Shown: piece after piece, positions 2,125-59,837 of the stretch
How the letters are laid out: each line of letters starts with the position of its first letter
How positions within the stretch are numbered: position 1 is the stretch's first letter
Source of the DNA: Dehalococcoidia bacterium
GTDB taxonomy: Bacteria; Chloroflexota; Dehalococcoidia; SpSt-223
Assembly: GCA_025054935.1 (NCBI GenBank)
Contig: JANWZD010000001.1
Location: 1 to 64,000, forward strand
Length of the DNA stretch: 64,000 nt
Direction of reading: 5' to 3'
Notes under the pieces: model-generated
What the model was told of the DNA's origin: nothing
What the model saw: only the letters and a program-made list of their open reading frames with translations
Database searches by the model: none
Translations under genes and position numbers: made by a program

Positions 2125-2230
2125 CCAATAAACTGGGTGAGGCGGCATACCGCGACCGACTGTCGCGCTTCGGCTGCAGCCGTGGAAGATGGATCCTGAG
2201 AGGCCGTCGGCCAGTGGAGGGAAGAGCATC

Positions 2231-3574
2231 ATGGCGAAGATCGAACACCCCGCGGCTCCACCGCTCGCAGACCTTCCGGAACGGCGACCCCGCGCCGCCC
2301 GCGCCGGCCCGCTGCTCAGCCGGTTCGACGTCACCGTTCAGGTCGTGACGCCTATCCTCGGCGGGAGCGTCCAGCCGCGCACCGTCGATGAAATCGACGT
2401 CATCCGGCCGGCCACCGTGCGCGGCCACCTGCGCTTCTGGTGGCGGGCGCTCCACGGCCACCGCTACGCCACCGCCGAGCAGCTCTTTGACGCCGAGAGC
2501 GCGCTCTGGGGCCGCGCCGCCACCGACCAAGGCGGCCGCTCAGCGGTCGAGCTTGCGGTCCAAATCGAGCGGCGTTCTCAAAAGGATGGCAGCAACGTGA
2601 GCTTGGGCGACACGGGCGCGTATGCGCTCTGGCCAGCTCGTGAGACCAGAGAGCGCGGCGCGGTCAAAGACCCAGCAGCGCCGCGCTGGTGCCCGGGCAT
2701 CCAGGTTCGCTTTGAGTTCACGGTGCCGGCGGCCCGCGCACAGGAAGTGCGCGACACCGTGCGGGCGTGGCTGCTCTTCGGCGGCTACGGCGGGCGGACG
2801 CGGCGCGGCGTCGGCAGCCTCACGGCGCTTTCGGACAAAGAAGCGTGGCTGCCGAAGGCGGCAAGCCGCGAGGAGTTCCAGCGTCTCTTCGGCCGCGACA
2901 TCTTCGCGAACGCCGGCGCGTCGCGGGAGACGCCGCTGCTGGCCGGGGCGCGCCTCTTCGCCGGCCAGCCGGAGCCGGGTGCGATTCGGGCATGGACCGC
3001 CGCGCTCGGGTGGCTGCAGGACTTCCGCCAAGGGACGCGCGGCGCCCAAGGCGAGCGCGCGCGGGAGCCCGACCCGCAAGGAGGCAAGCGGGCATCGATT
3101 TCCAACTGGCCGGAGGCGGACAAGGTGCGGCATCTCACCGGCAAGACGAGCGGCCACACGCCTCGCCATAACGGGACGCCAGCGTGGCCGCGGGCCGGGT
3201 TCGGCCTGCCGATCATCGGCCGCTTTCAGAAGGATGGCCGCAATGGCAGGCGGCTCGACGAGCCTGAGGGGTTCGAGCTCCGATGGCGCTCCAACGGCAC
3301 GGAGCACGATCGTCTCGCCAGCCCGCTGATTGTCAAGCCGCTTGCCCTCGCGAACGGCCAATTCGTGCCGATCGCGCTTTGGTTCACCCGCGCCTTGCCC
3401 CCTGACGCCCGCGTGTTCCTTAAAGGCGTGCCCGATTCCGACGCGCCGTTTGACCGGCTGGTCGCGCCGGGCGATACGCCGCGCTTCAAGGCGCTGCAGG
3501 GCAAGACGTCGCTGCGGGACGCCTTCCTCGACTGGCTCGCCGAGACGAATCGCGCGAAGGCGGTGGTCCGATGA
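2231..3574 (+). CDS. cmr1: Type III-B CRISPR RAMP protein Cmr1
   Basis: 447-aa RAMP protein, first gene of the Cmr effector operon. The family signature VRGHLRFWWRALHG is at residues 63-76, and a glycine-rich RAMP loop (GGYGGRTRRGVG) is near 183-194. Cmr1 caps the 3' end of the crRNA in the Cmr ribonucleoprotein, near the end of the target duplex. I chose ATG 2231 because GGAGG sits 10 nt upstream (2216-2220); an in-frame ATG at 2189 would add 14 residues without a clear RBS. The stop overlaps the cmr2 start by 4 nt (ATGA), so the two are probably translationally coupled. Confidence 0.9.
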   Translation: MAKIEHPAAPPLADLPERRPRAARAGPLLSRFDVTVQVVTPILGGSVQPRTVDEIDVIRPATVRGHLRFWWRALHGHRYATAEQLFDAESALWGRAATDQGGRSAVELAVQIERRSQKDGSNVSLGDTGAYALWPARETRERGAVKDPAAPRWCPGIQVRFEFTVPAARAQEVRDTVRAWLLFGGYGGRTRRGVGSLTALSDKEAWLPKAASREEFQRLFGRDIFANAGASRETPLLAGARLFAGQPEPGAIRAWTAALGWLQDFRQGTRGAQGERAREPDPQGGKRASISNWPEADKVRHLTGKTSGHTPRHNGTPAWPRAGFGLPIIGRFQKDGRNGRRLDEPEGFELRWRSNGTEHDRLASPLIVKPLALANGQFVPIALWFTRALPPDARVFLKGVPDSDAPFDRLVAPGDTPRFKALQGKTSLRDAFLDWLAETNRAKAVVR

Positions 3575-5355
3575 CACGCTCGCTGCTGCTCGTGACGCTT
3601 GGGCCGGTGCAGGGCTTCATCGCTCAAGCGCGCCGGACCCGCGACCTCTGGTACGGCAGTCATCTCCTTTCTGAGCTGAGCCGGGCGGCGGCGCGGGCAC
3701 TCGTCGCTCAAGGCGCACAGCTCATCTTCCCGGCGCTCGCGGCGGGCGACCCTGAGCTGACCCGCTGCGACGAGCCGGTTCGCGCTAATGGCCGGCCGCC
3801 GCAGGCGATCCCGAACAAGCTGCTCGCGCTCACGCCTGACGGCGCTGACCCTGCCGTCATTGCGCGCGCCACGCGCGATGAAGTGACGCGTTTCTGGCGC
3901 ACGGGGATTGCTGCCCGGGTCCGGCAGCGCTGCGCCGGCCTGATCTCCCCCAATATCGACGACGTGTGGCGCGAACAGGTCGAGACATTCCTCGAGTTCA
4001 CGGCTGCCTGGGCGCCGGCAGACAACTTTGTCGAGGCGCGGCGCAAAGTCGCGCAGGCGGTCGATGGGCGCAAGCTCCTGCGCGATTTCACCGCCTGGGA
4101 ATGGCAGCGCGGCGCCGTCCCGAACTCGAGCCTCGACGGGGCGAGGAAGACCGTCTTAAGGCTGCCGGATGCCCGCGACAAGGCGCTTGCAACGACCTAC
4201 CGTATCGGGGACGGCGAAAACCTCGACGCCATCGGGCTGATCAAGCGCGCCGGCGGCGACCCCGACCAGTTCGTCCCTGTCGTCAACGTCGCCGTCGCCG
4301 ATTGGGCGGCCTACGCACGGGAGATTGCCGCTAAAGAGATGGAAGAACTCGCCGAGGCCGCACGCGAAATCGGGCTCTCCCGCGTCTCCCGCGACCTTCC
4401 GTGCGCGCGGCCGTTCCGGTTCGATGCCAGCATCTTCTTCCCCGACCGCTGGCCGGCAGTGTTCAAAGAGCAGGATCTCAACGGTGAGCAGGATCTCAAC
4501 GGTGACCCGCAGGAGTGGGGAGAGACCTGGGTTCGGCCGGTGCTGCGGCGAGCGAAGGAGCCGTTTCCCTATGTCGCGTTCCTCGTCGCCGACGGCGACC
4601 GCGTCGGGCGAGCGCTCGATACCCTCGATTCGCCGGAGAAGCTTCAGACGTTCTCGAAGCAGCTCGCCGAGTTCGCGGGCGAGGCGCGCGACATTGTCGA
4701 GCAGCGGCATCGCGGCGCGCTGATCTATTCGGGCGGCGACGATGTGCTCGCCATCCTGCCGGTGCCGCAGGCGGTGGCCTGCGCCGACGCGCTCCGCCGG
4801 GGCTTTGCTGACGCTATGGCAAAGACGGGCGTTCCCGCCGGCGACCGGCCGACGCTCTCGGTCGGCATCGGCATCGGCCACGTGATGGAAGGCATGGGCG
4901 ATCTTCTCGACCTCGCTCGGGACGCCGAGCGCGAGGCGAAGAAGGAGCGCAACGCCCTCGCCGTCATCGTCGACCGCCGCTCCGGCGACCGGCGCGTCTG
5001 GCGCGCTTCATGGAACTCCGACCCCGCCAGCCGGCTCAGGGAGGATGCAGAGCTGCTCGCAGGACCGCTCTCCTCCCGCAAGGTGTATGAGATCGCGGCC
5101 GTCCTCCGCCGGCTGCCGCTGGCCGAGGCGGTCGATGGCGATGCGGAATGGAGAGCGCTGCTCGCGGGCGAGGTGAAGCGCGCTCTGGCGCGCGCGGGCG
5201 AGGGCAGCCTGACGCCGGCCGAGGTCGGGCTCGACCTTCCCAAATCGTACCGCGAGTGCCGCGAGGCGGTCGAGCAGTGGGTCAACCGAGTGCTGCTTGC
5301 CCGCGTGCTCGAGATGGCGAAACCCGGCGCATCGCGCGCTCAGGAGGAACGATGA
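3571..5355 (+). CDS. cmr2: Cas10/Cmr2, large subunit of type III-B effector
   Basis: 594-aa Cas10 of the Cmr2 type. The protein begins almost directly with the GPVQGF/RRTRDLWYGSHLLSELS region, so the N-terminal HD nuclease domain of longer Cmr2 proteins is absent. The palm-domain motif GGDD is intact at residues 388-391, with downstream cyclase-like elements (SVGIGIGH). This predicts synthesis of cyclic oligoadenylates on target RNA binding but no HD-type ssDNA cleavage. I see no CxxC pairs for the usual zinc finger. An exact 18-bp tandem duplication (4468-4485 and 4486-4503) gives a repeated EQDLNG before the palm. Overlaps cmr1 and cmr3 by 4 nt each. Confidence 0.93.
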   Translation: MTRSLLLVTLGPVQGFIAQARRTRDLWYGSHLLSELSRAAARALVAQGAQLIFPALAAGDPELTRCDEPVRANGRPPQAIPNKLLALTPDGADPAVIARATRDEVTRFWRTGIAARVRQRCAGLISPNIDDVWREQVETFLEFTAAWAPADNFVEARRKVAQAVDGRKLLRDFTAWEWQRGAVPNSSLDGARKTVLRLPDARDKALATTYRIGDGENLDAIGLIKRAGGDPDQFVPVVNVAVADWAAYAREIAAKEMEELAEAAREIGLSRVSRDLPCARPFRFDASIFFPDRWPAVFKEQDLNGEQDLNGDPQEWGETWVRPVLRRAKEPFPYVAFLVADGDRVGRALDTLDSPEKLQTFSKQLAEFAGEARDIVEQRHRGALIYSGGDDVLAILPVPQAVACADALRRGFADAMAKTGVPAGDRPTLSVGIGIGHVMEGMGDLLDLARDAEREAKKERNALAVIVDRRSGDRRVWRASWNSDPASRLREDAELLAGPLSSRKVYEIAAVLRRLPLAEAVDGDAEWRALLAGEVKRALARAGEGSLTPAEVGLDLPKSYRECREAVEQWVNRVLLARVLEMAKPGASRAQEER

Positions 5356-6512
5356 CCGAGACCGCGCATCTCGCGCTCATTCCTCGCGACGGGCTGTTCT
5401 GCAAAGACGGGCGCGGCTGGTTTACCAGCGCCTCGAACCGCGGCCACGCGCTCGACTGGCCGTGGCCCCAGACTATCCTCGGCGCGCTCCGGACCGCCTG
5501 GGGGCGCACGGAAGAAGCGCGGCGCGGCCGCGCCTTTCGTCCCGATGAGTGGGCTGACCAGACAGCGGCGATCGCGCTTGGGCCGACGTTCCCGCTCCGC
5601 CGGCCGCACGGCGCGGCGTGGGAACCCGGCCAGCGGATGTGGCCGGCGCCGGCCGATGCCCGCTGGCTGAAGGACGAGAAGGAGGTGGCGCGCCTCGACC
5701 CGGTGCCAAGCGACGTGCCGACCTTGGGCCGCGACGACGACGACGCGCGCGAGGCGCTCTGGCGTCCGCAGCTTGACGACCGGCAGAAACCGGAACCGCC
5801 ACCCGCGTGGCTGCCCGACGCCGATTTCATCGCCTGGCTGGCCGGCCGTCCCGTCCCTGTCCGACGGGAGCGGTTCCGGCTCGCAAAGCGTGTCCAAATC
5901 CATGTTACGGTGGACCCCAGTACCCTCACAGCGAAGGAGGGGCTGCTCTACTCCCACGATGTCGTCGAGACGGTGGAGCGCGATGCCGAGTGGGCGATCG
6001 GCGCCGAGGTGACCCTTCCGAGCGCCGGGCTGCGCTGGGCGACGATCGGGGCGGATGCCCGGCTGGCCGCAGTCGAGCCGCTGCCCGCGGAGCTGTTCGC
6101 GCCGCCGCCCGCGCTGCTCGAGGCGTTCCGGGCAGGAAGCCGCGGCCTGCGGCTGGTCGTCGTCACGCCGGCGTGGTTCCGCCGCGGCTGGCTGCCGAAC
6201 GGCCTCCAGCGCGATGACGAAACGAAGACGTATCGCGGCCGGCTGCGCGGTCTCGAGGTCGACCTCGTCCTGCGCGCCGCGTTCGTCCCTCGTCCGATCG
6301 AGGTCTCGGGCTGGGCGGTGCGCGAGGGGGTCGCCAAGCGCTCGGACCGACTTGTTCCGCCCGGAGCGGTCTACTTCTTCGAACGCGCCGACGGCGGCGT
6401 CTTTACCGACGCCGAGGCGCGGGCGCTCTGGCTCGCTCAGCTTGGCTCGCGCCCGAGCGGAGGCTATGGCCGCGTCGTCCCAGGTGTCTGGACCCCTGCA
6501 AGGAGGAGCTGA
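5352..6512 (+). CDS. cmr3: Type III-B CRISPR RAMP protein Cmr3
   Basis: 386-aa RAMP. The N-terminus (LIPRDGLFCKDGRGW, then PWPQTILGALRTAWGR) matches the Cmr3 pattern of a short conserved strand followed by the pathway-entry helix, and SGGYGRV near the C-terminus is the RAMP glycine loop. Cmr3 pairs with Cmr2 and holds the 5' handle of the crRNA. I chose ATG 5352, which overlaps the cmr2 stop (ATGA) and has AGGAGG at 5342-5347. A longer open frame upstream runs through cmr2 and is not coding. The stop overlaps the Cmr4 ATG by 1 nt. Confidence 0.88.
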   Translation: MTETAHLALIPRDGLFCKDGRGWFTSASNRGHALDWPWPQTILGALRTAWGRTEEARRGRAFRPDEWADQTAAIALGPTFPLRRPHGAAWEPGQRMWPAPADARWLKDEKEVARLDPVPSDVPTLGRDDDDAREALWRPQLDDRQKPEPPPAWLPDADFIAWLAGRPVPVRRERFRLAKRVQIHVTVDPSTLTAKEGLLYSHDVVETVERDAEWAIGAEVTLPSAGLRWATIGADARLAAVEPLPAELFAPPPALLEAFRAGSRGLRLVVVTPAWFRRGWLPNGLQRDDETKTYRGRLRGLEVDLVLRAAFVPRPIEVSGWAVREGVAKRSDRLVPPGAVYFFERADGGVFTDAEARALWLAQLGSRPSGGYGRVVPGVWTPARRS

Positions 6513-7381
6513 TGATCGTCCGTCCTTTCCTCGTCCATGCGCTTTCTCCGCTCCACGCCGGCGTCGGCCACGCGGCAGACGTCGTCGACCTGCCGATCGC
6601 GCGCCTGAAAGCAACCGGCATCCCGTTCATCCCCGGGTCGTCGCTGAAGGGCGTCCTCCGCGACGCCCGCCAAAATGCCAATACCGAGGACAATAACAAC
6701 GAGGAGAGGCTCAAGGCGGTCTTCGGGCCGCCGACCGGCGAGGCGCATGAGCATGCCAGCGCGCTCTCGCTGACCGACGCTCGCCTGCTCGCGATGCCGG
6801 TGCGCAGCTTCCGCGGCGTCTTCGCGTGGACAACCTCGCCCTTGCTGCTCAAGCTCGCCAAGCGCGACCTCAATGAGCGCGCCCGCGACCTTCCCGTCCC
6901 GGCGATCGACGGCCGGCGGGCGCTCGTTACCAGCGGAAGCGCCGTTCTCCACAAGAACCATGTCTATCTCGGTGAACTCGACCTCGAAGCTGCCGCCTCG
7001 CCGGAGGCCGCCCGCTGGGCGCAGTTCCTCGCTCCCTGGATCTCGCCCGAGGAGGACATCTTCTCGAAGCGGTTTGTCATCGTCGACGACGACACGATGG
7101 CGTTCTTCATGGAGACGGCGACCCAAGTCGACGCTCGCGTTCGGCTCGACGACACGACCCGGACGGTCGCCCAAGGCGCGCTCTGGCTCGAGGAGAGCTT
7201 GCCGCCGGAGACGGTGCTGATTGGGCTGCTCGTCGCTGACCGGAGCCGCAGGAACGGCAAGCTGGGGCCGCTCTCTCCCGAGGAAGTTGCTGACTTCGCT
7301 CTGCCTCGCGAGGAAACGCTGCAGATCGGCGGCAAAGCGACGACCGGCCACGGCCGCTGCCGCATCATCCCGGTTTCGTGA
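6512..7381 (+). CDS. cmr4: Type III-B backbone RNase Cmr4
   Basis: 289-aa RAMP forming the helical backbone of the Cmr complex and cutting target RNA at 6-nt intervals. The N-terminus (SPLHAGVGHAADVVDLPI) places an aspartate at residue 26, matching the catalytic Asp known from archaeal Cmr4. IPFIPGSSLKGVLRD and a terminal glycine loop (GGKATTGHGR) are also typical. Start ATG 6512 is overlapped by the cmr3 stop (TGATG) and preceded by AGGAGG. By homology the nuclease should be active. Confidence 0.93.
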   Translation: MIVRPFLVHALSPLHAGVGHAADVVDLPIARLKATGIPFIPGSSLKGVLRDARQNANTEDNNNEERLKAVFGPPTGEAHEHASALSLTDARLLAMPVRSFRGVFAWTTSPLLLKLAKRDLNERARDLPVPAIDGRRALVTSGSAVLHKNHVYLGELDLEAAASPEAARWAQFLAPWISPEEDIFSKRFVIVDDDTMAFFMETATQVDARVRLDDTTRTVAQGALWLEESLPPETVLIGLLVADRSRRNGKLGPLSPEEVADFALPREETLQIGGKATTGHGRCRIIPVS

Positions 7382-51683: not shown

Positions 51684-54600
51684 ATGGTTGTTGGTCCCGA
51701 ACTCCCTCACTATTATCTGCCGGCAGAGAGGGTGGCCCGATCCCTAACGCCTAGCTCCCCGCCTGCTGGCAGCGTGAATGTCCCGGTCAGCACAGACGCC
51801 CGGCCGTCGCGCCGGCGGTCAGACGTGACCGTACTTCTCGCAGCCGGCATTGGACTGATCGCGGCAGTTCCTTTTTTCCTTCCGGGCTTTCCGGCAGCGC
51901 GGGACTCCCTCTCGCATCTCTTTCGAGTGTGGGCGGTCGAAGCCGCTGTCGCCGGCGGGACGCTCTATCCGCGCTGGCTTGGCGACTTTGTCTACGGCTA
52001 CGGCTACCCGCTGTTCAACTTTTATGGCCCGCTGCTCTACGCTCTCGCGCTGCTGCCGGCGTATCTCGGCGCAGACGCGATGCTTGCGCTGCGGTTTGCG
52101 GTGATCCTGAGCGTGGCGGCCGCTGCCGTTGGCGCGGCGCTGCTCGCGCGCGACTTGGTCGGTTCCGCCGGCGGCGTGGTGGCGGCGGCTGTCTATGTCG
52201 CCGCTCCCTATGTGCAGACCGACCTGCTTGTGCGCGGGGCGTTTCCCGAAGTGCTCGGGATCGCGCTCCTGCCGTGGGCGCTGCTCGCCGTGCAGCGCGA
52301 CCGTCCGGTCTGGCTGGCAGTTGCTGTCGCGCTGCTGGTGCTGGCGCATAACGGGGCGGCACTGATCGGGCTCCCCCTCGTAGCCGGCTTTCTGCTCTGG
52401 CGTGCCGGAGGCGCGCGCCGACTCTCGCCACTGCGCCGCGGCGGCGCCGGGGTCGGCATCGGGCTGCTGCTCTCGGCGTGGTTTTGGCTGCCCGCGACCA
52501 TCGAACTGGAGGCGGTGTGGCTCGGCACGCCGGAAGGGCGGACCGACTTCCTCGCCGCTCTTGCGCCCTTCGACCAGCTAGTCCAGTTCTCGTTCCTCCA
52601 CGACTACCGCGAAGTGCCGGGCGCATTCCTGCCTGCCGGCCTCGTGCAGGTGCTCCTTGCGCTTGCAGGACTGCCGTTCGCGCTGCGGCGCGGGGGCGCG
52701 CTGTTCGCGATCGTGCTGGTGCTGACGGCTGTGCTGATGACGCCGCTCGCTGCGCCCCTCTGGGAGCGGTTGCCGATCGTCACCTTGATGGCGTTCCCTT
52801 GGCGGCTTCAGGCGGTCGTTGCGCTCGCATGCGCGGTGCTCGCCGCCGGAATTCCCTCCCTCTCCCGGCGACGAGCGTTGCGGCTCGCGCTCGCGGCGGC
52901 CGCGACGATAGCTGCTCTCGTCGCCGGATTGGCCGGCGCGCGGCCGACCTTCCTCGACATCGCGCCCCACGCCATCGACAGCGGAGGCTTTGCGGCGTTC
53001 GAACGCTGGAGCGGGTTTATCGGCACGACTTCCCCCGTCCAGTTTCGCCCACGCTCAGTCGCGATCGACCCGGCGCGCCTGCCGGAGCCGGCCGCAGAGC
53101 CCGCACCGCGCGATCCCGTGCCCGAAGTCGCCTTCCTCTCAGATGGCCGGCTGCGTGTTCGGAGCGACAGCGCGACAACCCTCCGTGTCCGGCAGTTCTT
53201 CTTCCCCGGCTGGAGCGCGCGCGCGGACGGGATGCCGCTGCCGATCTCAGCCGACGGGCCGGCAGGCGTGATCGCCGTCGCGCTGCCGCCGGGGGAGACA
53301 ACGCTGGCGCTCACCTTTGGACCGACAGGACCGCGTTTCGCCGGCGCGCTCGCTTCGGCTGTTGGTCTCGCCGCTGCCGTCGCCCTTGGGATGCGGCCAC
53401 GACGGCGGGGGCTGCTGCTTTCTCTTGCGGTGCTGGTCGCTGGGCTCGCGGTCGCGCTGCGTCTGCCGGACCAGCCGGCGTGGACGGGGCTGCGTCCCGC
53501 GAGCGGCGACGCCGGTCCCCTCTCCCTGCTTGGGGTCGGCGTCAACGAGGACCGGGTGCCCCTCGACGGCGTGCTCACGGTGCGCGCGCTCTGGCAAACG
53601 CGCGAGCCCCTCGGCCCGGACTGGGAAGCGGTCGTCGCGCTCGAGCAGGTCGAGAGCGGGGTGGTGACGAAGGTAGCGCGCGCGCCGCGCGCCGGCACAG
53701 TCTCTTCAGGACGATGGCGGGCCGGCGATCTCGTTGAGGATGTGCAGTGGCTGACCGTTCCGCCGAGTGCGACCGCTCAGCCGTATCGCCTCTGGCTTGG
53801 CTGGCGCGCTCCAGATCGCGAAACACCCCTGCTGCCTGCCGGCGAGGGTTGGCTTCCCCCCTCCCCGCTCCGTGCTCCTTCGCTGCCATTCGTCGCCGGC
53901 GGCCGCTTCGAGGGAGGAGTGACGCTCCTTGCCGGCCAGGCGACACCGGTGGCGGCATTGCCGCTCGGACTGACGCTGCCCTGGCCGGGCACGCTCGCCG
54001 ACCTCGGGGGACGCGGCGCGCTTGACGTGCGGCTTCTCTGGCAGGCGGACACTCCGCTGCAAGAGGACTACGGAATTTTTGTCACCGTTCGGCATGGCGC
54101 TCAGGTGATCACGCAGACCAACACCTTCCCGCCGCTCGACCAGCGCTATACCTCGCTCTGGCCGGTCGGGCGGCCGGTCGAGCAGCGCTATCTGCTGCCG
54201 CTGCCGGCCCTTCCCGAGGGACCGATCGAGGTGACGGCGGGGCTGTTCCGCCGGGATACTCTCGTGCGCCTGCGCACCGTCGAGGGCGCTGACCAAGCTG
54301 TAGTCGCCCGGCTGCGCCGTGAGGCTGCACCTCCAGCGCTGCGCGTTGATCAGCCGATCGGAGCGGCGCTGCTTCTCGGCTACGACCGGCACGACGGCTG
54401 CGGGACGATCATCTCCCCGCCGTGCACGATCGAACTCCGTCTTGTCTGGGCAGCGCGTCAGCCGATTGCCGAGCCGCTAACGGTCTTTCTTCATCTTGTC
54501 GGCCCAGCGGGTCAGCTCGTCAGCCAGCAGGACGGTCCGCCGAACGACGGGATCGAGCCGACCGATCGCTGGGGAGGCGAACGGGTGGGAGACCGGCGGC

Positions 54601-54734
54601 GGCTCGTACTTCCCGCGGATGCGCCGCCCGGCGACTACCGCATACTGGTGGGGCTGTATCGGGCAGACGGCAGCCGAGTGCCGGCAGCTGACGGCGATTC
54701 GGTCGAGTTGTTTCGCGTCCGCGTTGTCCGCTAG
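51684..54734 (+). CDS. Giant YfhO-like membrane protein
   Basis: 1016 aa. Residues about 45-420 hold roughly ten membrane helices, including the first-loop segment SLSHLFRVWAVEAAVAGGTLYPRWLGDFVYGYGYPLFNFYGPL, as in the '6-pyruvoyl-tetrahydropterin synthase-related' YfhO-like proteins. The helices are followed by about 590 residues of soluble domain, broken by two helices (near 555-600), with Pro-rich linkers and two beta-sandwich-like modules. The start is uncertain: ATG 51684, GTG 51732 and GTG 51774 are in frame. Probable role in surface polymer export or glycosylation; unproven. Confidence 0.65.
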   Translation: MVVGPELPHYYLPAERVARSLTPSSPPAGSVNVPVSTDARPSRRRSDVTVLLAAGIGLIAAVPFFLPGFPAARDSLSHLFRVWAVEAAVAGGTLYPRWLGDFVYGYGYPLFNFYGPLLYALALLPAYLGADAMLALRFAVILSVAAAAVGAALLARDLVGSAGGVVAAAVYVAAPYVQTDLLVRGAFPEVLGIALLPWALLAVQRDRPVWLAVAVALLVLAHNGAALIGLPLVAGFLLWRAGGARRLSPLRRGGAGVGIGLLLSAWFWLPATIELEAVWLGTPEGRTDFLAALAPFDQLVQFSFLHDYREVPGAFLPAGLVQVLLALAGLPFALRRGGALFAIVLVLTAVLMTPLAAPLWERLPIVTLMAFPWRLQAVVALACAVLAAGIPSLSRRRALRLALAAAATIAALVAGLAGARPTFLDIAPHAIDSGGFAAFERWSGFIGTTSPVQFRPRSVAIDPARLPEPAAEPAPRDPVPEVAFLSDGRLRVRSDSATTLRVRQFFFPGWSARADGMPLPISADGPAGVIAVALPPGETTLALTFGPTGPRFAGALASAVGLAAAVALGMRPRRRGLLLSLAVLVAGLAVALRLPDQPAWTGLRPASGDAGPLSLLGVGVNEDRVPLDGVLTVRALWQTREPLGPDWEAVVALEQVESGVVTKVARAPRAGTVSSGRWRAGDLVEDVQWLTVPPSATAQPYRLWLGWRAPDRETPLLPAGEGWLPPSPLRAPSLPFVAGGRFEGGVTLLAGQATPVAALPLGLTLPWPGTLADLGGRGALDVRLLWQADTPLQEDYGIFVTVRHGAQVITQTNTFPPLDQRYTSLWPVGRPVEQRYLLPLPALPEGPIEVTAGLFRRDTLVRLRTVEGADQAVVARLRREAAPPALRVDQPIGAALLLGYDRHDGCGTIISPPCTIELRLVWAARQPIAEPLTVFLHLVGPAGQLVSQQDGPPNDGIEPTDRWGGERVGDRRRLVLPADAPPGDYRILVGLYRADGSRVPAADGDSVELFRVRVVR

Positions 54735-54892: not shown

Positions 54893-56290
54893 ATGGTTCG
54901 GAGAATAAACGCGCGCTCCTCTGCTGCCATTGCTGCTGCGAAGGCGACCGGCGTCATGCTGCGGCTGGCGGGACGCGGAGGAACAGCGCTGCCGGGGCTC
55001 GTTGCCGAGCGGATTGATCCTGCCCTTGTCGCTGTGCTTGCGCACAACTTAGCGCGCGGGAGCGCGCTGGTGACGGGGACGAACGGCAAGACGACGACGA
55101 CGCGGCTGGTGGCAGCAGCGCTGCGCGCTGGGGGGCTGGCTCCTGTCCACAACACTGCCGGCTCGAACCTGATGCGCGGCTTGGCGGCGACGCTCGCCTC
55201 GGCCGCGCGCTTCGACGGCAGGCTGCCGGCAGGCTTCCGGTCGGTTGGGGTCTTCGAAGTGGACGAAGCCGTCGCTCCGCAGGCGGCGCGCGCCCTCCGG
55301 CCGCGGGTTGTGGTCATCACCAACCTCTTTCGTGACCAGCTCGACCGGTACGCTGAACTGGACACTGTTGCCGCGCTCTGGCGCGAGATGATCGCCTCTC
55401 TTCCCGGAGCGACAGTCGTCCTTAATGCTGACGATCCCCTCGTCGGCGCGCTGCCGGCGCCGCCGAGCGGACGGCGGCTGCTCTACGGCATTGCCGACCC
55501 TGCTGTTGCTGTCGACGCGGCTGGCACCGCCGACTCGATCTGGTGTCCGGCCTGCGGCGGCCGGCTCGCCTTTCGCGCTCGCTGGTTTTCCCATCTTGGC
55601 GACTATTCTTGCCCTAGCTGCGGCTATGCTCGTCCGCCGCTTGACCTCGCTGCCGTGGAGGTGCGGTGTCTCGGGTTCGAGGGGAGCAGGCTGCTTGTCC
55701 GGAGCGCGGCGGGCGAGGTCGCTCTTGCTCTGCCCCTGCCGGGACTGTACAACGTCTCAAACGCCCTCGCTGCTCTGGGCGGCGCGCTGGCGATGGGTGT
55801 GCCGAGCGCGGTGGCGGCGCGCGCCCTCGCGTCGGCGGGAACGGCGTTCGGCCGAGCGGAGCGGCTGGTCGTCGCCGGGCGCGAGGTCGCCATTCTGCTC
55901 ATCAAGAACCCTGCCGGTGCCGACCAAGCGCTGCGGACGATCCAGGCTGAAGAGGCGGCCCCAAGCGTGCTTTTCGCGCTCAATGACCGGATTGCTGACG
56001 GTCGTGATGTCTCGTGGATCTGGGATGTCGACTTTGAGCGGCTCGCTGGCCGCCATGGCCCGATCACCGTCACTGGCGACCGGGCTGCCGAACTGGCGCT
56101 GCGGCTGAAGTATGCTGGGGCTGATGACGGCGTCGAGGTTGAGCCGCACCTCGAGCGCGCAGTCGACCGCGCCCTCCGCCGGGGCGCGGGGCGGCTGTAC
56201 GTTTTGCCGACCTATACTGCGCTTCTCGCGCTTCATCGGATCTTCGCCCGGCGCGCCGGCGCACAGCAGTTCTGGGAGCGACGCGGGTAG
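54893..56290 (+). CDS. murT: Lipid II isoglutaminyl synthase subunit MurT
   Basis: 465 aa from ATG 54893 (a TTG at 54884 is also in frame). Mur-ligase P-loop TGTNGKTTTT and NADD motif are present. Between the central and C-terminal domains is the MurT-specific zinc ribbon CPACGG...CPSCGY. MurT with GatD amidates the D-glutamate of lipid II to D-isoglutamine, using ammonia from GatD. The adjacent GatD makes the assignment firm. This supports a peptidoglycan-containing envelope. The stop overlaps the GatD start by 1 nt. Confidence 0.92.
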   Translation: MVRRINARSSAAIAAAKATGVMLRLAGRGGTALPGLVAERIDPALVAVLAHNLARGSALVTGTNGKTTTTRLVAAALRAGGLAPVHNTAGSNLMRGLAATLASAARFDGRLPAGFRSVGVFEVDEAVAPQAARALRPRVVVITNLFRDQLDRYAELDTVAALWREMIASLPGATVVLNADDPLVGALPAPPSGRRLLYGIADPAVAVDAAGTADSIWCPACGGRLAFRARWFSHLGDYSCPSCGYARPPLDLAAVEVRCLGFEGSRLLVRSAAGEVALALPLPGLYNVSNALAALGGALAMGVPSAVAARALASAGTAFGRAERLVVAGREVAILLIKNPAGADQALRTIQAEEAAPSVLFALNDRIADGRDVSWIWDVDFERLAGRHGPITVTGDRAAELALRLKYAGADDGVEVEPHLERAVDRALRRGAGRLYVLPTYTALLALHRIFARRAGAQQFWERRG

Positions 56291-57081
56291 TGACCTTCGT
56301 GCTGCGGATCGGGCATCTCTATCCGGACGTGATGAACTTGTACGGCGATCGAGGCAATGTCCTTGCGCTTGCTCAGCGCGCGCGCTGGCGCGGCTTCGGG
56401 GTTGAGATCATCCCAATCTCCCTTGGAGACCCGTTTCGGCCTGACGCCGTTGACCTTCTCTTCGCAGGGGGGGACCAAGATCGCGAGCAGCGGCGCGTTG
56501 CTGCCGACCTTGCCGGCAGGAAAGGGGAGGCGATCCGGGCGGCGATCGAAGAGGGGCTGCCGGCGTTGGTGGTCTGCGGGAGCTACCAGCTGTTTGGCGA
56601 GCGCTATCAGCCTGCCGCGGGGCCTGAACTGCGGGGCCTCGCCGTCTTCGATGCGGTGACCATCCATCCGGGTGCCACTGTCGTCCGCTGCGTCGGCAAC
56701 ATTGTCGTCGACTGGGAAGGCTCCTTGCTCGTCGGGTTCGAAAACCACGGCGGACGCACCTATCTCGGGCCGCGGGCTGCGCCGCTCGGCCGGGTGGTGG
56801 TGGGCTACGGCAATAATGGGGAGGACGGCACAGAAGGAGCGCGCTATAAGAACGCTTTTGGCACCTATCTGCACGGCGCGCTGCTGCCGAAGAACCCGAT
56901 GCTCGCGGACACCCTCCTCTCTCTCGCGCTGCAGCGGCGCGGCGAAGACCCCGCGCTCGCGCCGCTCGATGAGCGTGTCGAGGAGGCGGCGCGCCGCGTG
57001 GCGATTGCCCGGGCTCGCCGCGAGCGCCATGCTCTGCGCAATGTCGGGGCGACCCGCCGCTCGCCCGGAACGCGCCGATGA
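56290..57081 (+). CDS. gatD: Glutamine amidotransferase GatD
   Basis: 263 aa, cobQ-like class I glutaminase. The nucleophile Cys is C96 in VVCGSYQLFG, and the His is in YLHGALLPKNP. The N-terminal IGHLYPDVMNLYGDRGNVLAL is the GatD hallmark. It supplies ammonia to MurT. GTG start overlaps the murT stop. The extra C-terminal region is basic (RRERHALRNVG). The stop overlaps the next gene. Confidence 0.92.
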   Translation: MTFVLRIGHLYPDVMNLYGDRGNVLALAQRARWRGFGVEIIPISLGDPFRPDAVDLLFAGGDQDREQRRVAADLAGRKGEAIRAAIEEGLPALVVCGSYQLFGERYQPAAGPELRGLAVFDAVTIHPGATVVRCVGNIVVDWEGSLLVGFENHGGRTYLGPRAAPLGRVVVGYGNNGEDGTEGARYKNAFGTYLHGALLPKNPMLADTLLSLALQRRGEDPALAPLDERVEEAARRVAIARARRERHALRNVGATRRSPGTRR

Positions 57082-58109
57082 CTGCGGCCGAGGCGCTGCT
57101 CTTCATGCTGCTTGGAGCAGTCAGCGTGCTTGTCGCCGGCTATGTGCTGCGGGCGCTCGCTGCGGCTAGGTCGGTCTCAGAGCCGGCCTTGGAGGGTAGG
57201 GTAGAGAAGGTGTCGGTCGATGTCCTCATGATCGGGGGCGCGGCCGCAGGGCTTGAGCGTCAGGGAAAATCGCTGACCGTCGTTCAGCCGGTTGCAGCGG
57301 TTCCCCCTGGCTGGACGAGCCGCACTTGGCCGCTCCAGCAGGCGGCCGCCGCGGCGCGCGGCGAGTGGCTGCTCCTCACCACCAGCACAACGGCCTGGCG
57401 CGCGGGCGCGCTGAGCGCACTCGTCCGGTTCGCCCGCACACGGCAAGCGGCCCTAGTCACGCTATTCGGCTGCCAGGAAGCGACCACGCTTGCCGAACGC
57501 CTCGCGCTTCCCGTTCTCCTGCTGGGACTAGCAGCAGCAAACCCGCTCGCGGCAGCGAATGCTCCCGACCGCACAAACGTCGCCCTCGCTTTCCCGGAGT
57601 GCCTCCTCATCCGGCGCGATGTCTGGGAGGCGATTGGAGGCCTCCAGCTTCTCAAGGGGCGGGACGAACCGTGGTTTGAACTCGCGTGCCTTGTCAAAGC
57701 ATCGGGGCGGCCGATCGTCGTCGGCAGCGGTCGACTGCTTTTCACGGCCGCAGGCGGCCGTCGCTGGCCTGCGCTTTCCGACCGCTGGGCGCGCCTCTTC
57801 GGGCGCGTGGGAGGCGGCCGCCTGGGAGTGGTCGCGGCGGCAGCAGCTATTGTGCTGACAGTGAATGTGCTGCCGTTCGGCTGGCTGCTGATCGGCGGGA
57901 TCGGATTGCTCTTGAACCCGGCCTCGATTCTGTGGACGATGTGCGGGGCGATCGGCTTGGCGCAGACAGCCGCGGTCCTGGCGGCGCGCCGCTGGATCGA
58001 GCGGCTGACTACCGTCCCCCCGCTCTTTCTCATCACGCATCCGCTCGGAGGGTTGATGGTCGTCGCAATCCTGCTCGCTTCCCTGAGCCGCGGAGGCAGC
58101 GAACGATGA
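57078..58109 (+). CDS. GT2-like membrane protein without DxD
   Basis: 343 aa: one N-terminal anchor helix, a soluble middle and three C-terminal helices. The middle (GWTSRTWPLQQAAAAARGEWLLL, LIRRDVWEAIGGLQLL) follows the HpnB-like GT2 pattern, but the metal-binding 'DAD' after GEWLLL is TTSTT (101-105), and the usual N-terminal nucleotide-binding 'PARNEE' segment is not recognisable. It may be an inactive GT-A protein or one using an unusual site. It is coupled to gatD and the methyltransferase (4-nt overlaps). Confidence 0.6.
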   Translation: MTAAEALLFMLLGAVSVLVAGYVLRALAAARSVSEPALEGRVEKVSVDVLMIGGAAAGLERQGKSLTVVQPVAAVPPGWTSRTWPLQQAAAAARGEWLLLTTSTTAWRAGALSALVRFARTRQAALVTLFGCQEATTLAERLALPVLLLGLAAANPLAAANAPDRTNVALAFPECLLIRRDVWEAIGGLQLLKGRDEPWFELACLVKASGRPIVVGSGRLLFTAAGGRRWPALSDRWARLFGRVGGGRLGVVAAAAAIVLTVNVLPFGWLLIGGIGLLLNPASILWTMCGAIGLAQTAAVLAARRWIERLTTVPPLFLITHPLGGLMVVAILLASLSRGGSER

Positions 58110-58798
58110 ATGAACGCCGTCCGTCCCGACGGACCGACCCGCGCGCCCCGGTCCTGAGCGGTTCTTTGCGCGAGCTGCTGGCGCGCTATCGCTTTGTCGA
58201 GCGGTTCGCAGCCGGTCGCGCGGTGTTAGTGATTGGCGCGGCCGATGGGAGCGGGGCGGCGCGGCTTGCGGACGTGGCGCAGAAGGTGGTCGCACTCGAC
58301 CCGGTGCCCGCGCTTATCCAGCGGGCGGTCCGCCGCTACCGCCGCCCGAACCTGCGCTTTGCTGTCGGGGGGCCGGACGTCGCAGGCCTGACCCCCGCCT
58401 CGTTCGACGTGATAACGGCCTTCCATCGGCTCGATCGCGTCACGCGCTGGCCGGCATTCCTCGATGGGGTCCGGGCAGTGATGCGACCGGGCGGGCAGTT
58501 TGTCATCGCGGTCGAAAATGCCAACTGGGAAGCGCTAGGACGGGCGCCCGCCATGCTTCCTTCCGGCGCGCCTGCGTTCCCTCTCGCCGAGTTTCACGAC
58601 CTTCTTGCCGACCGATTCAAGATCCGCGGGCTGTACGGGCAATCCTCGGCAGCCAAGGCGCTCCTCATCCACACGGCGGCGTATGTCTGCCCTCACGGCG
58701 CAGGAGCAGCGGTCGACCTCGCGGATCGCGCCGCTGCAGTCGCCGGCCCAGCGACCGCGGCGAGCCGCTATTTTGTCGCTGTCTGTGAGCGGCGCTGA
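58106..58798 (+). CDS. SAM-dependent methyltransferase
   Basis: 230 aa from ATG 58106. Class I methyltransferase Rossmann core: VLVIGAADGSGAARLA (motif I), VVALDPVPAL (acidic loop), FDVITAFHRLDRV, and VMRPGGQFVIAVEN. The substrate is unknown, but small-molecule or lipid acceptors are typical for this UbiE-like layout. A longer frame from 57686 overlaps the upstream gene and is not coding. The start overlaps the GT2-like stop (ATGA), and its stop overlaps the deacetylase ATG by 1 nt. Confidence 0.8.
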   Translation: MNERRPSRRTDPRAPVLSGSLRELLARYRFVERFAAGRAVLVIGAADGSGAARLADVAQKVVALDPVPALIQRAVRRYRRPNLRFAVGGPDVAGLTPASFDVITAFHRLDRVTRWPAFLDGVRAVMRPGGQFVIAVENANWEALGRAPAMLPSGAPAFPLAEFHDLLADRFKIRGLYGQSSAAKALLIHTAAYVCPHGAGAAVDLADRAAAVAGPATAASRYFVAVCERR

Positions 58799-59715
58799 TG
58801 GAGCCGCACTATCGCTATCGGCCAGTCAGCAGCCGGCCGCCATTTCGCTGGCCCGGCGGAAATCACCTCGCGGTCGTACTCACCGTCACCCTTGAGTCGT
58901 GGGACCTCGTCAAACCAGCCGGCGCGGCGGGATATGCCGGCGGCCCGAGCATCCTGCCTGACCCGCTGCCCGCCGATATCCCCGATTGGCCGAACTACAC
59001 TTGGCGCGAGTATGGAATGCGCGTCGGCTTTTGGCGAGTCTTGGAGGTCCTTGAGCAGTACGGTGTTCGCGGTTCAGCCGCGCTTGGGCTCCAAGTGCCG
59101 GAACGGTATCCCGCCATGTTCGAAGCGGCGCTCGAGGCCGGCTGGGAGCTCAACGCTCACGGCTACGACCAAGGCACGCCGCTGACGGCGTTCGCGCGCG
59201 ACCCCGATGCAGAGCGGCGCTACCTTGAGGAAGTGGTCGCTCGCTATCTCGCTGCGGTCGGGACACGGCCGCTCGGCTGGCTCTCTCCGTCGGCGCGCTT
59301 CACTGCCCACACCGTTCGTTTCCTCGCTGAACTGGGGTTTCTCTACCATGGCGACTATCTGAACGATGACGAGCCGTATCTGATCGAAGTGAGCGGGCGG
59401 CGGCTGGTGGCGATCCCCTACTCCTTCGAGGTGAACGACTACACAGCGTTTTTCCGGCGGAACTTCACAACGGCAGAGTGGAGCAGCCTCCTGCGCGAGA
59501 CGTTTGACTTCCTCCTCGACGAAGCGCGCCGCACCGGCTCAGGCAAGCTGATGAATGTCGGGCTGCATCCGCATGTGATCGGCGCGCCGTTCCGAATCCG
59601 AAGTCTCGCTCAGTTCCTCGCCTATGCCCGCGAACAGCCGGGGGTCTTCTTCCCGACGCGCGAAGAGATCGCGAGGATCACGCTTGACCAGGCGGAGCGC
59701 ATCGGGATCTCGTAA
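58798..59715 (+). CDS. Polysaccharide deacetylase / PuuE-like (CE4 fold)
   Basis: 305 aa NodB/CE4 barrel. VLTVTLESWD and WELNAHGYDQG are at the expected metal-site positions; GWLSPSARFTAHTVRFLAELGF and LHPHVIGAPFRI are motifs shared with the PuuE (allantoinase-like) clade, whose enzymes act on small amides as well as glycans. No signal peptide, so the substrate is likely cytoplasmic. Last gene of the MurT operon by overlap. Confidence 0.82.
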   Translation: MEPHYRYRPVSSRPPFRWPGGNHLAVVLTVTLESWDLVKPAGAAGYAGGPSILPDPLPADIPDWPNYTWREYGMRVGFWRVLEVLEQYGVRGSAALGLQVPERYPAMFEAALEAGWELNAHGYDQGTPLTAFARDPDAERRYLEEVVARYLAAVGTRPLGWLSPSARFTAHTVRFLAELGFLYHGDYLNDDEPYLIEVSGRRLVAIPYSFEVNDYTAFFRRNFTTAEWSSLLRETFDFLLDEARRTGSGKLMNVGLHPHVIGAPFRIRSLAQFLAYAREQPGVFFPTREEIARITLDQAERIGIS

Positions 59716-59837
59716 CCGAACAACCGGTCGGCGAGCGAAGCGGCGGCTCACGCGGTGTCCGCTTCATGCGTCGGAGCGCAGCGTCGAGCCGGCGTGGTAT
59801 AGACTTGTGGCGCTTTAGCCTCGTCGGGATTGGATTG

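Follow-up and report, generated by a model that had tools for sequence, protein, structure and literature searches.

The question raised by this locus is whether five tightly packed genes of a Dehalococcoidia bacterium encode enzymes acting on one cell-wall precursor. The genes are co-directional on the plus strand and occupy positions 54893 to 59715 of the window, i.e., of the entire 64,000-nucleotide stretch of DNA that was analyzed. A preliminary description had read them as murT and gatD followed by genes for a GT2-like enzyme, a methyltransferase, and a CE4-type deacetylase, and had proposed that the five products might modify a single cell-wall or lipid-linked precursor.

The four junctions overlap by 1 (TAGTG), 4 (ATGA), 4 (ATGA), and 1 (TGATG) nucleotides, in gene order, and the reported succession of five genes overlapping by 1 to 4 nucleotides was thereby borne out. 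These overlaps are real yet ordinary for this genome. Start overlaps of 1 or 4 nucleotides were found in 11 of the 23 same-strand neighbor pairs less than 150 nucleotides apart in the window, and in 7 of 19 pairs when the four junctions of the locus were set aside. This census covered the genes with a reciprocal best match in contig C7 of a related genome, G002; one paralogue of 30% identity was dropped and the methyltransferase gene was added by hand. A second run of three overlapping junctions is present at positions 2189 to 7381. The packing argues for co-transcription rather than for a common substrate. Upstream, 158 nucleotides separate the ATG start codon of murT at position 54893 (the longest frame opens at TTG 54884) from a long membrane-protein gene (51684 to 54734; PTPS_related). 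On the other side, a 50-nucleotide gap follows the fifth gene, the next longest frame opening at position 59766. A biotin-carrier-like gene is located downstream of the locus in the same direction and is followed by genes of that orientation which, recognized by eye, we take to encode methylmalonyl-CoA mutase. Scanning for promoters and terminators revealed no promoter-like site and five terminator-like sites versus 3.5 expected, four on the plus strand and one on the minus strand, all within coding sequence. Comparison with G002 indicated purifying selection on each of the five genes, so that none is decaying.

The first two genes, murT (54893 to 56290; 465 residues) and gatD (56290 to 57081; 263 residues), had been assigned to the Mur-ligase-like and glutaminase subunits of a lipid II isoglutaminyl synthase. 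MurT matched the Mur_ligase_M and MurT_C profiles, the latter (113 bits) far above its cut-off, and GatD matched GATase_3 (110 bits), also far above the cut-off, so that the domain combination defining the MurT-GatD family occurs here in adjacent genes. MurT contains a P-loop (GTNGKTTT) at residue 62, and its Cys4 zinc-ribbon motifs are located at residues 218 and 240. The catalytic triad shared by the two subunits, namely, GatD C94 and H189 and MurT D349 in the available text of PMC6113224, is intact, since these residues of the Staphylococcus aureus proteins align with GatD C96 and H195 and with MurT D372. The best solved-structure relatives of both subunits were MurT-GatD complexes (6fqb, 9sq9, 7q8e, and 6gs2). 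The murT-gatD operon of S. aureus and Streptococcus pneumoniae, as presented in the accessible portions of PMC6113224 and PMC3267633, shares with the window gene order, tight spacing, and domains, in addition to the P-loop, the Cys4 ribbon, the Cys and His of GatD, and the Asp of MurT. The second of these articles, in its available part, described MurT-GatD in 2012 as a widespread syntenic pair. Unlike in these operons, three further overlapping genes are found downstream in the lineage of the window. Unlike characterized MurT-GatD proteins, both subunits fall under the NCBIfam equivalog cut-offs (255.5 versus 800 bits and 211.4 versus 450 bits), which serve to label proteins rather than to define the family; we took these scores as distance from the founders of the models and not as a failed test. 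The same genome encodes FtsZ, MurB, MurC, MurG, FtsW, MraY, MurE, and an FtsI/SpoVD-like PBP. Together, the residue and domain matches and the peptidoglycan genes support the assignment of the pair as a putative lipid II isoglutaminyl synthase of the ordinary type.

Gene order was compared in a sample of 60 genomes, in which 24, including that of the window, contained a MurT-level match (>300 bits). The neighborhoods from the 23 other genomes and the best 80 of 480 relatives provided 103 loci. Four of these were duplicates, six had no gatD within reach, and two were cut in gatD, leaving 91 loci in which gatD is whole; in 15 of them, less than 3 kb of sequence follows this gene. The loci were searched with the window proteins as queries and, for frames of at least 100 residues at an E value of 1e-4, with a profile for each of the three families. 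The three extra genes were all found after gatD only in G002, whose locus is identical to that of the metagenome-assembled genome (MAG) Dehalococcoidia bacterium KatS3mg060 (L034 and L058). Taken literally, the order is not confined to the genome of the window, but collinearity between G002 and this DNA extends over the greater part of the window. In contig C7 of G002, the reciprocal best matches of window positions 1 to 41.6 kb (29 of 29) form an unbroken series in inverted order, and nine more, from 54.9 to 63.9 kb, occur in direct order; between 41.6 and 54.9 kb, only the paralogue of 30% identity was found. The shared five-gene order is thus what general synteny would give and adds little. 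Between the two congeners, the 29-gene block (window positions 1 to 41616; C7:122774-168178) and the murT block thus differ in relative orientation.

The more telling comparison is provided by G001, a more distant congener whose MurT is 65% identical to that of the window. In this genome, murT and gatD are followed by the methyltransferase gene only, and then by a convergent frame; the GT2-like gene was not found anywhere in G001. In the remaining 89 of the 91 loci, no same-strand gene of the three extra families was detected downstream of gatD. The order is therefore not seen beyond close kin, the next congener being devoid of two of the three genes and the 89 other loci of all of them. The genus is represented by three genomes in the sample of 60, which contains no other genus of the family. 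Among the articles listed by literature searches, we found no description of the five-gene combination, nor did one appear in the accessible portions of the MurT-GatD articles PMC6085368, PMC6113224, and PMC3267633. Searches on KatS3mg060 and on inactive GT2 proteins in connection with peptidoglycan produced nothing relevant among the entries listed.

Other arrangements of murT and gatD were encountered in this survey. In two Chloroflexota MAGs, murT is split from gatD by two opposite-strand genes (L105:6890-8625 and L114:6039-7786), presumably encoding a polyprenyl-phosphate-mannosyltransferase-like GT2 and an integral membrane protein of the UPF0104 kind. The opposite-strand glycosyltransferase-like matches at these two loci were rejected as instances of the window's arrangement, as they belong to another GT2 type and are located between murT and gatD, and an opposite-strand match at L048 was likewise discarded. 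At L044 (contig C2 of G034) and L047 (contig C146 of G055), murT has no adjoining gatD, which is carried by another contig, indicating that linkage of the two genes is not universal in the class. In two actinobacterial MAGs (L074 and L090), gatD is not contiguous with murT but starts about 2.15 kb beyond it.

Of the three extra genes, only the fourth gene of the locus (58106 to 58798; 230 residues) is common to all three genomes of the genus, the products from the other two genomes being 74 and 56% identical to the window copy. The protein scored above the gathering threshold of Pfam Methyltransf_11, Methyltransf_23, and Methyltransf_25 and contains motif I, as expected for class I S-adenosylmethionine (SAM)-dependent methyltransferases. 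The methyltransferase assignment originally proposed was thus recovered; the role in wall or glycan modification was not, since the protein is generic and profile searches revealed no match to a specific family. Retention beside murT-gatD throughout the genus may mean that a real link exists. If any of the extra genes is linked to MurT-GatD, it is therefore the methyltransferase gene.

The third gene (57078 to 58109; 343 residues) encodes a membrane protein with one N-terminal and several C-terminal hydrophobic segments. The protein weakly matched Glyco_transf_21 (22.0 bits versus a cut-off of 21.7) and the HpnB model (2.7e-15, far under the HpnB cut-off). In a search of the phylum, matches at 1e-8 were present in 143 of 400 genomes; in the class sample, no relative exceeded 32% identity beyond G002. 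We aligned the window protein and its G002 copy with 34 homologues, of which the phylum search supplied 24 loci and the class search the other 10. The N-E motif, DDxS, the lysine of GWxGK, DxD, and [ED]D were kept in all 34 homologues and replaced in the window and G002 proteins, as was the MY..W..KN stretch, which begins with MY in 32 of the 34. Neither species therefore retains the set (N-E, DDxS, DxD, and [ED]D) that marks an active GT2, and the GT-A fold has lost its first strand-helix unit, the one carrying the N-E motif. Thus, the protein resembles the HpnB- or CruG-type GT2 of Chloroflexota by weak profile matches and about 19 to 37% identity, mostly over residues 57 to 340, and differs from them by the loss of the catalytic motifs and of the first beta-alpha unit. 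A phmmer search against solved structures returned only chance-level matches (3-phosphoshikimate 1-carboxyvinyltransferase; E value of 0.15), and AlphaFold models computed from two-row alignments had mean pLDDT values of 40.7 for this protein and 44.9 for the fifth gene product, too low to be informative.

The gene has nevertheless been maintained. Its dN/dS between the window and G002 is 0.18, an approximate value because dS (1.57) is near saturation, and changes are dominated by third positions (80, 79, 205). This dN/dS ranks sixth highest among 21 genes (range, 0.035 to 0.243), a set comprising 14 comparison genes outside the locus picked by hand from the reciprocal matches, and the protein, 64% identical to its G002 copy, is the second least conserved. 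The combination of motif loss and purifying selection indicates that the third gene product is, as predicted from its sequence, a maintained pseudo-glycosyltransferase devoid of a GT2 active site, and its description as a glycan-modifying enzyme is not supported. Such a protein could be a non-catalytic membrane subunit that uses the lipid-binding part of a GT2 to keep MurT-GatD, and perhaps the methyltransferase as well, at lipid II. Loss of the motifs in both species, good conservation of the C-terminal membrane part, the dN/dS, and the direct overlap with gatD in the window are consistent with this role, but it is unlikely, since G001 keeps murT-gatD without the GT2-like gene and since the gatD-GT2 junction of G002 is a 9-nucleotide gap instead of an overlap.

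The fifth gene (58798 to 59715; 305 residues) encodes a PuuE-like protein of the NodB fold. The metal site of NodB-fold CE4 enzymes comprises the Asp of the first motif and two His residues. In the window protein, the first and second motifs read TLES and HGYDQG; the Asp and the second His are gone, H121 is the only ligand left, and the metal site of CE4 polysaccharide deacetylases is consequently absent. The HGxxH form is kept in 3 of 23 aligned homologues. The protein marginally matched Polysacc_deac_1 (25.5 versus a cut-off of 23.1) and far better the PuuE model TIGR03212 (126.2 bits), although this score is below the cut-off of the allantoinase family (424.6). Among solved relatives, the match to PuuE (1.3e-31) was followed by that to the Pseudomonas aeruginosa structure 1z7a (2.2e-30) and, at a distance, by Helicobacter pylori HP0310 (3qbu; 1.7e-11). 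The sequence contains no hydrophobic N-terminal or signal-like segment. The likeness to PuuE allantoinase (PDB 3CL6) thus extends from the best structure match to the absence of the second His and of a signal-like segment, PuuE being non-metal dependent in the available text of PMC10967932. HP0310, unlike PuuE, binds a metal, according to the accessible part of PMC3084791. The gap between 126 and 424.6 bits sets the window protein apart from PuuE allantoinase, and allantoin is therefore not implied as its substrate. In G001, NodB-like homologues (36 and 31% identity) are encoded elsewhere in the genome, including two tandem genes in contig C89 (L236; 4941 to 11938) surrounded by genes for a GntR regulator, an MmgE/PrpD domain, an isochorismatase-type hydrolase, and an NlpA-type ABC importer. 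This neighborhood suggests that the G001 branch functions in small-molecule catabolism, and by analogy the window protein may do so as well. The loss of the metal ligands, the similarity to PuuE, and the lack of a hydrophobic N terminus argue against the CE4-type deacetylase that had been proposed.

The locus is most probably composed of an ordinary lipid II isoglutaminyl synthase (MurT-GatD) and of three lineage-specific genes joined to it by tight packing. By analogy with characterized relatives, GatD would free ammonia from glutamine and MurT would use ATP to amidate the D-isoglutamate of the stem peptide. The three downstream genes would have joined the transcription unit through tight packing, with the methyltransferase acting on some substrate, the GT2-like product being a non-catalytic membrane protein, and the NodB-like product being either an amidohydrolase of small molecules or an inactive protein. 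Wall modification is probably not the function of these three genes, whose products need not act on the same substrate as MurT-GatD.

The original proposal, in which all five proteins would modify one lipid-linked wall precursor by amidation, glycosylation, methylation, and deacetylation, draws on the tight overlaps and on the retention of the methyltransferase throughout the genus. We consider it very unlikely and do not retain it, since the GT2 active site and the NodB metal site are absent, the fifth protein is PuuE-like, the methyltransferase is generic, and the gene order is limited to two collinear congeners. A narrower version, in which the pseudo-GT2 would provide a platform holding MurT-GatD and the genus-specific methyltransferase at lipid II, leading to a precursor both amidated and methylated, is highly improbable. 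There is even less reason to regard the NodB-like protein as a metal-dependent peptidoglycan deacetylase similar to H. pylori HP0310: the HP0310 match is outweighed by that to PuuE, the second His of the HP0310 motif is replaced by Gln, the Asp of the first motif is also replaced, and a signal-like segment is missing. Finally, purifying selection would be compatible with an active glycosyltransferase having a rebuilt active site, but this can scarcely be credited for a protein whose GT-A fold lacks the initial strand-helix unit and that keeps the acidic residues of DDxS, DxD, and [ED]D in neither species.

The evidence thus points to lineage-specific neighbors of an ordinary MurT-GatD pair, not to a new pathway. 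The main value of this analysis is to correct an over-reading of the locus, since adjacent genes often overlap by 1 to 4 nucleotides in this genome and textbook active sites are missing from two of the three presumed glycan enzymes. The conserved pseudo-GT2 is the only mildly surprising part and would catch the eye of a specialist. Should this protein prove to cooperate with MurT-GatD, it would represent an unusual case of a dead glycosyltransferase recruited to the amidation of peptidoglycan precursors.
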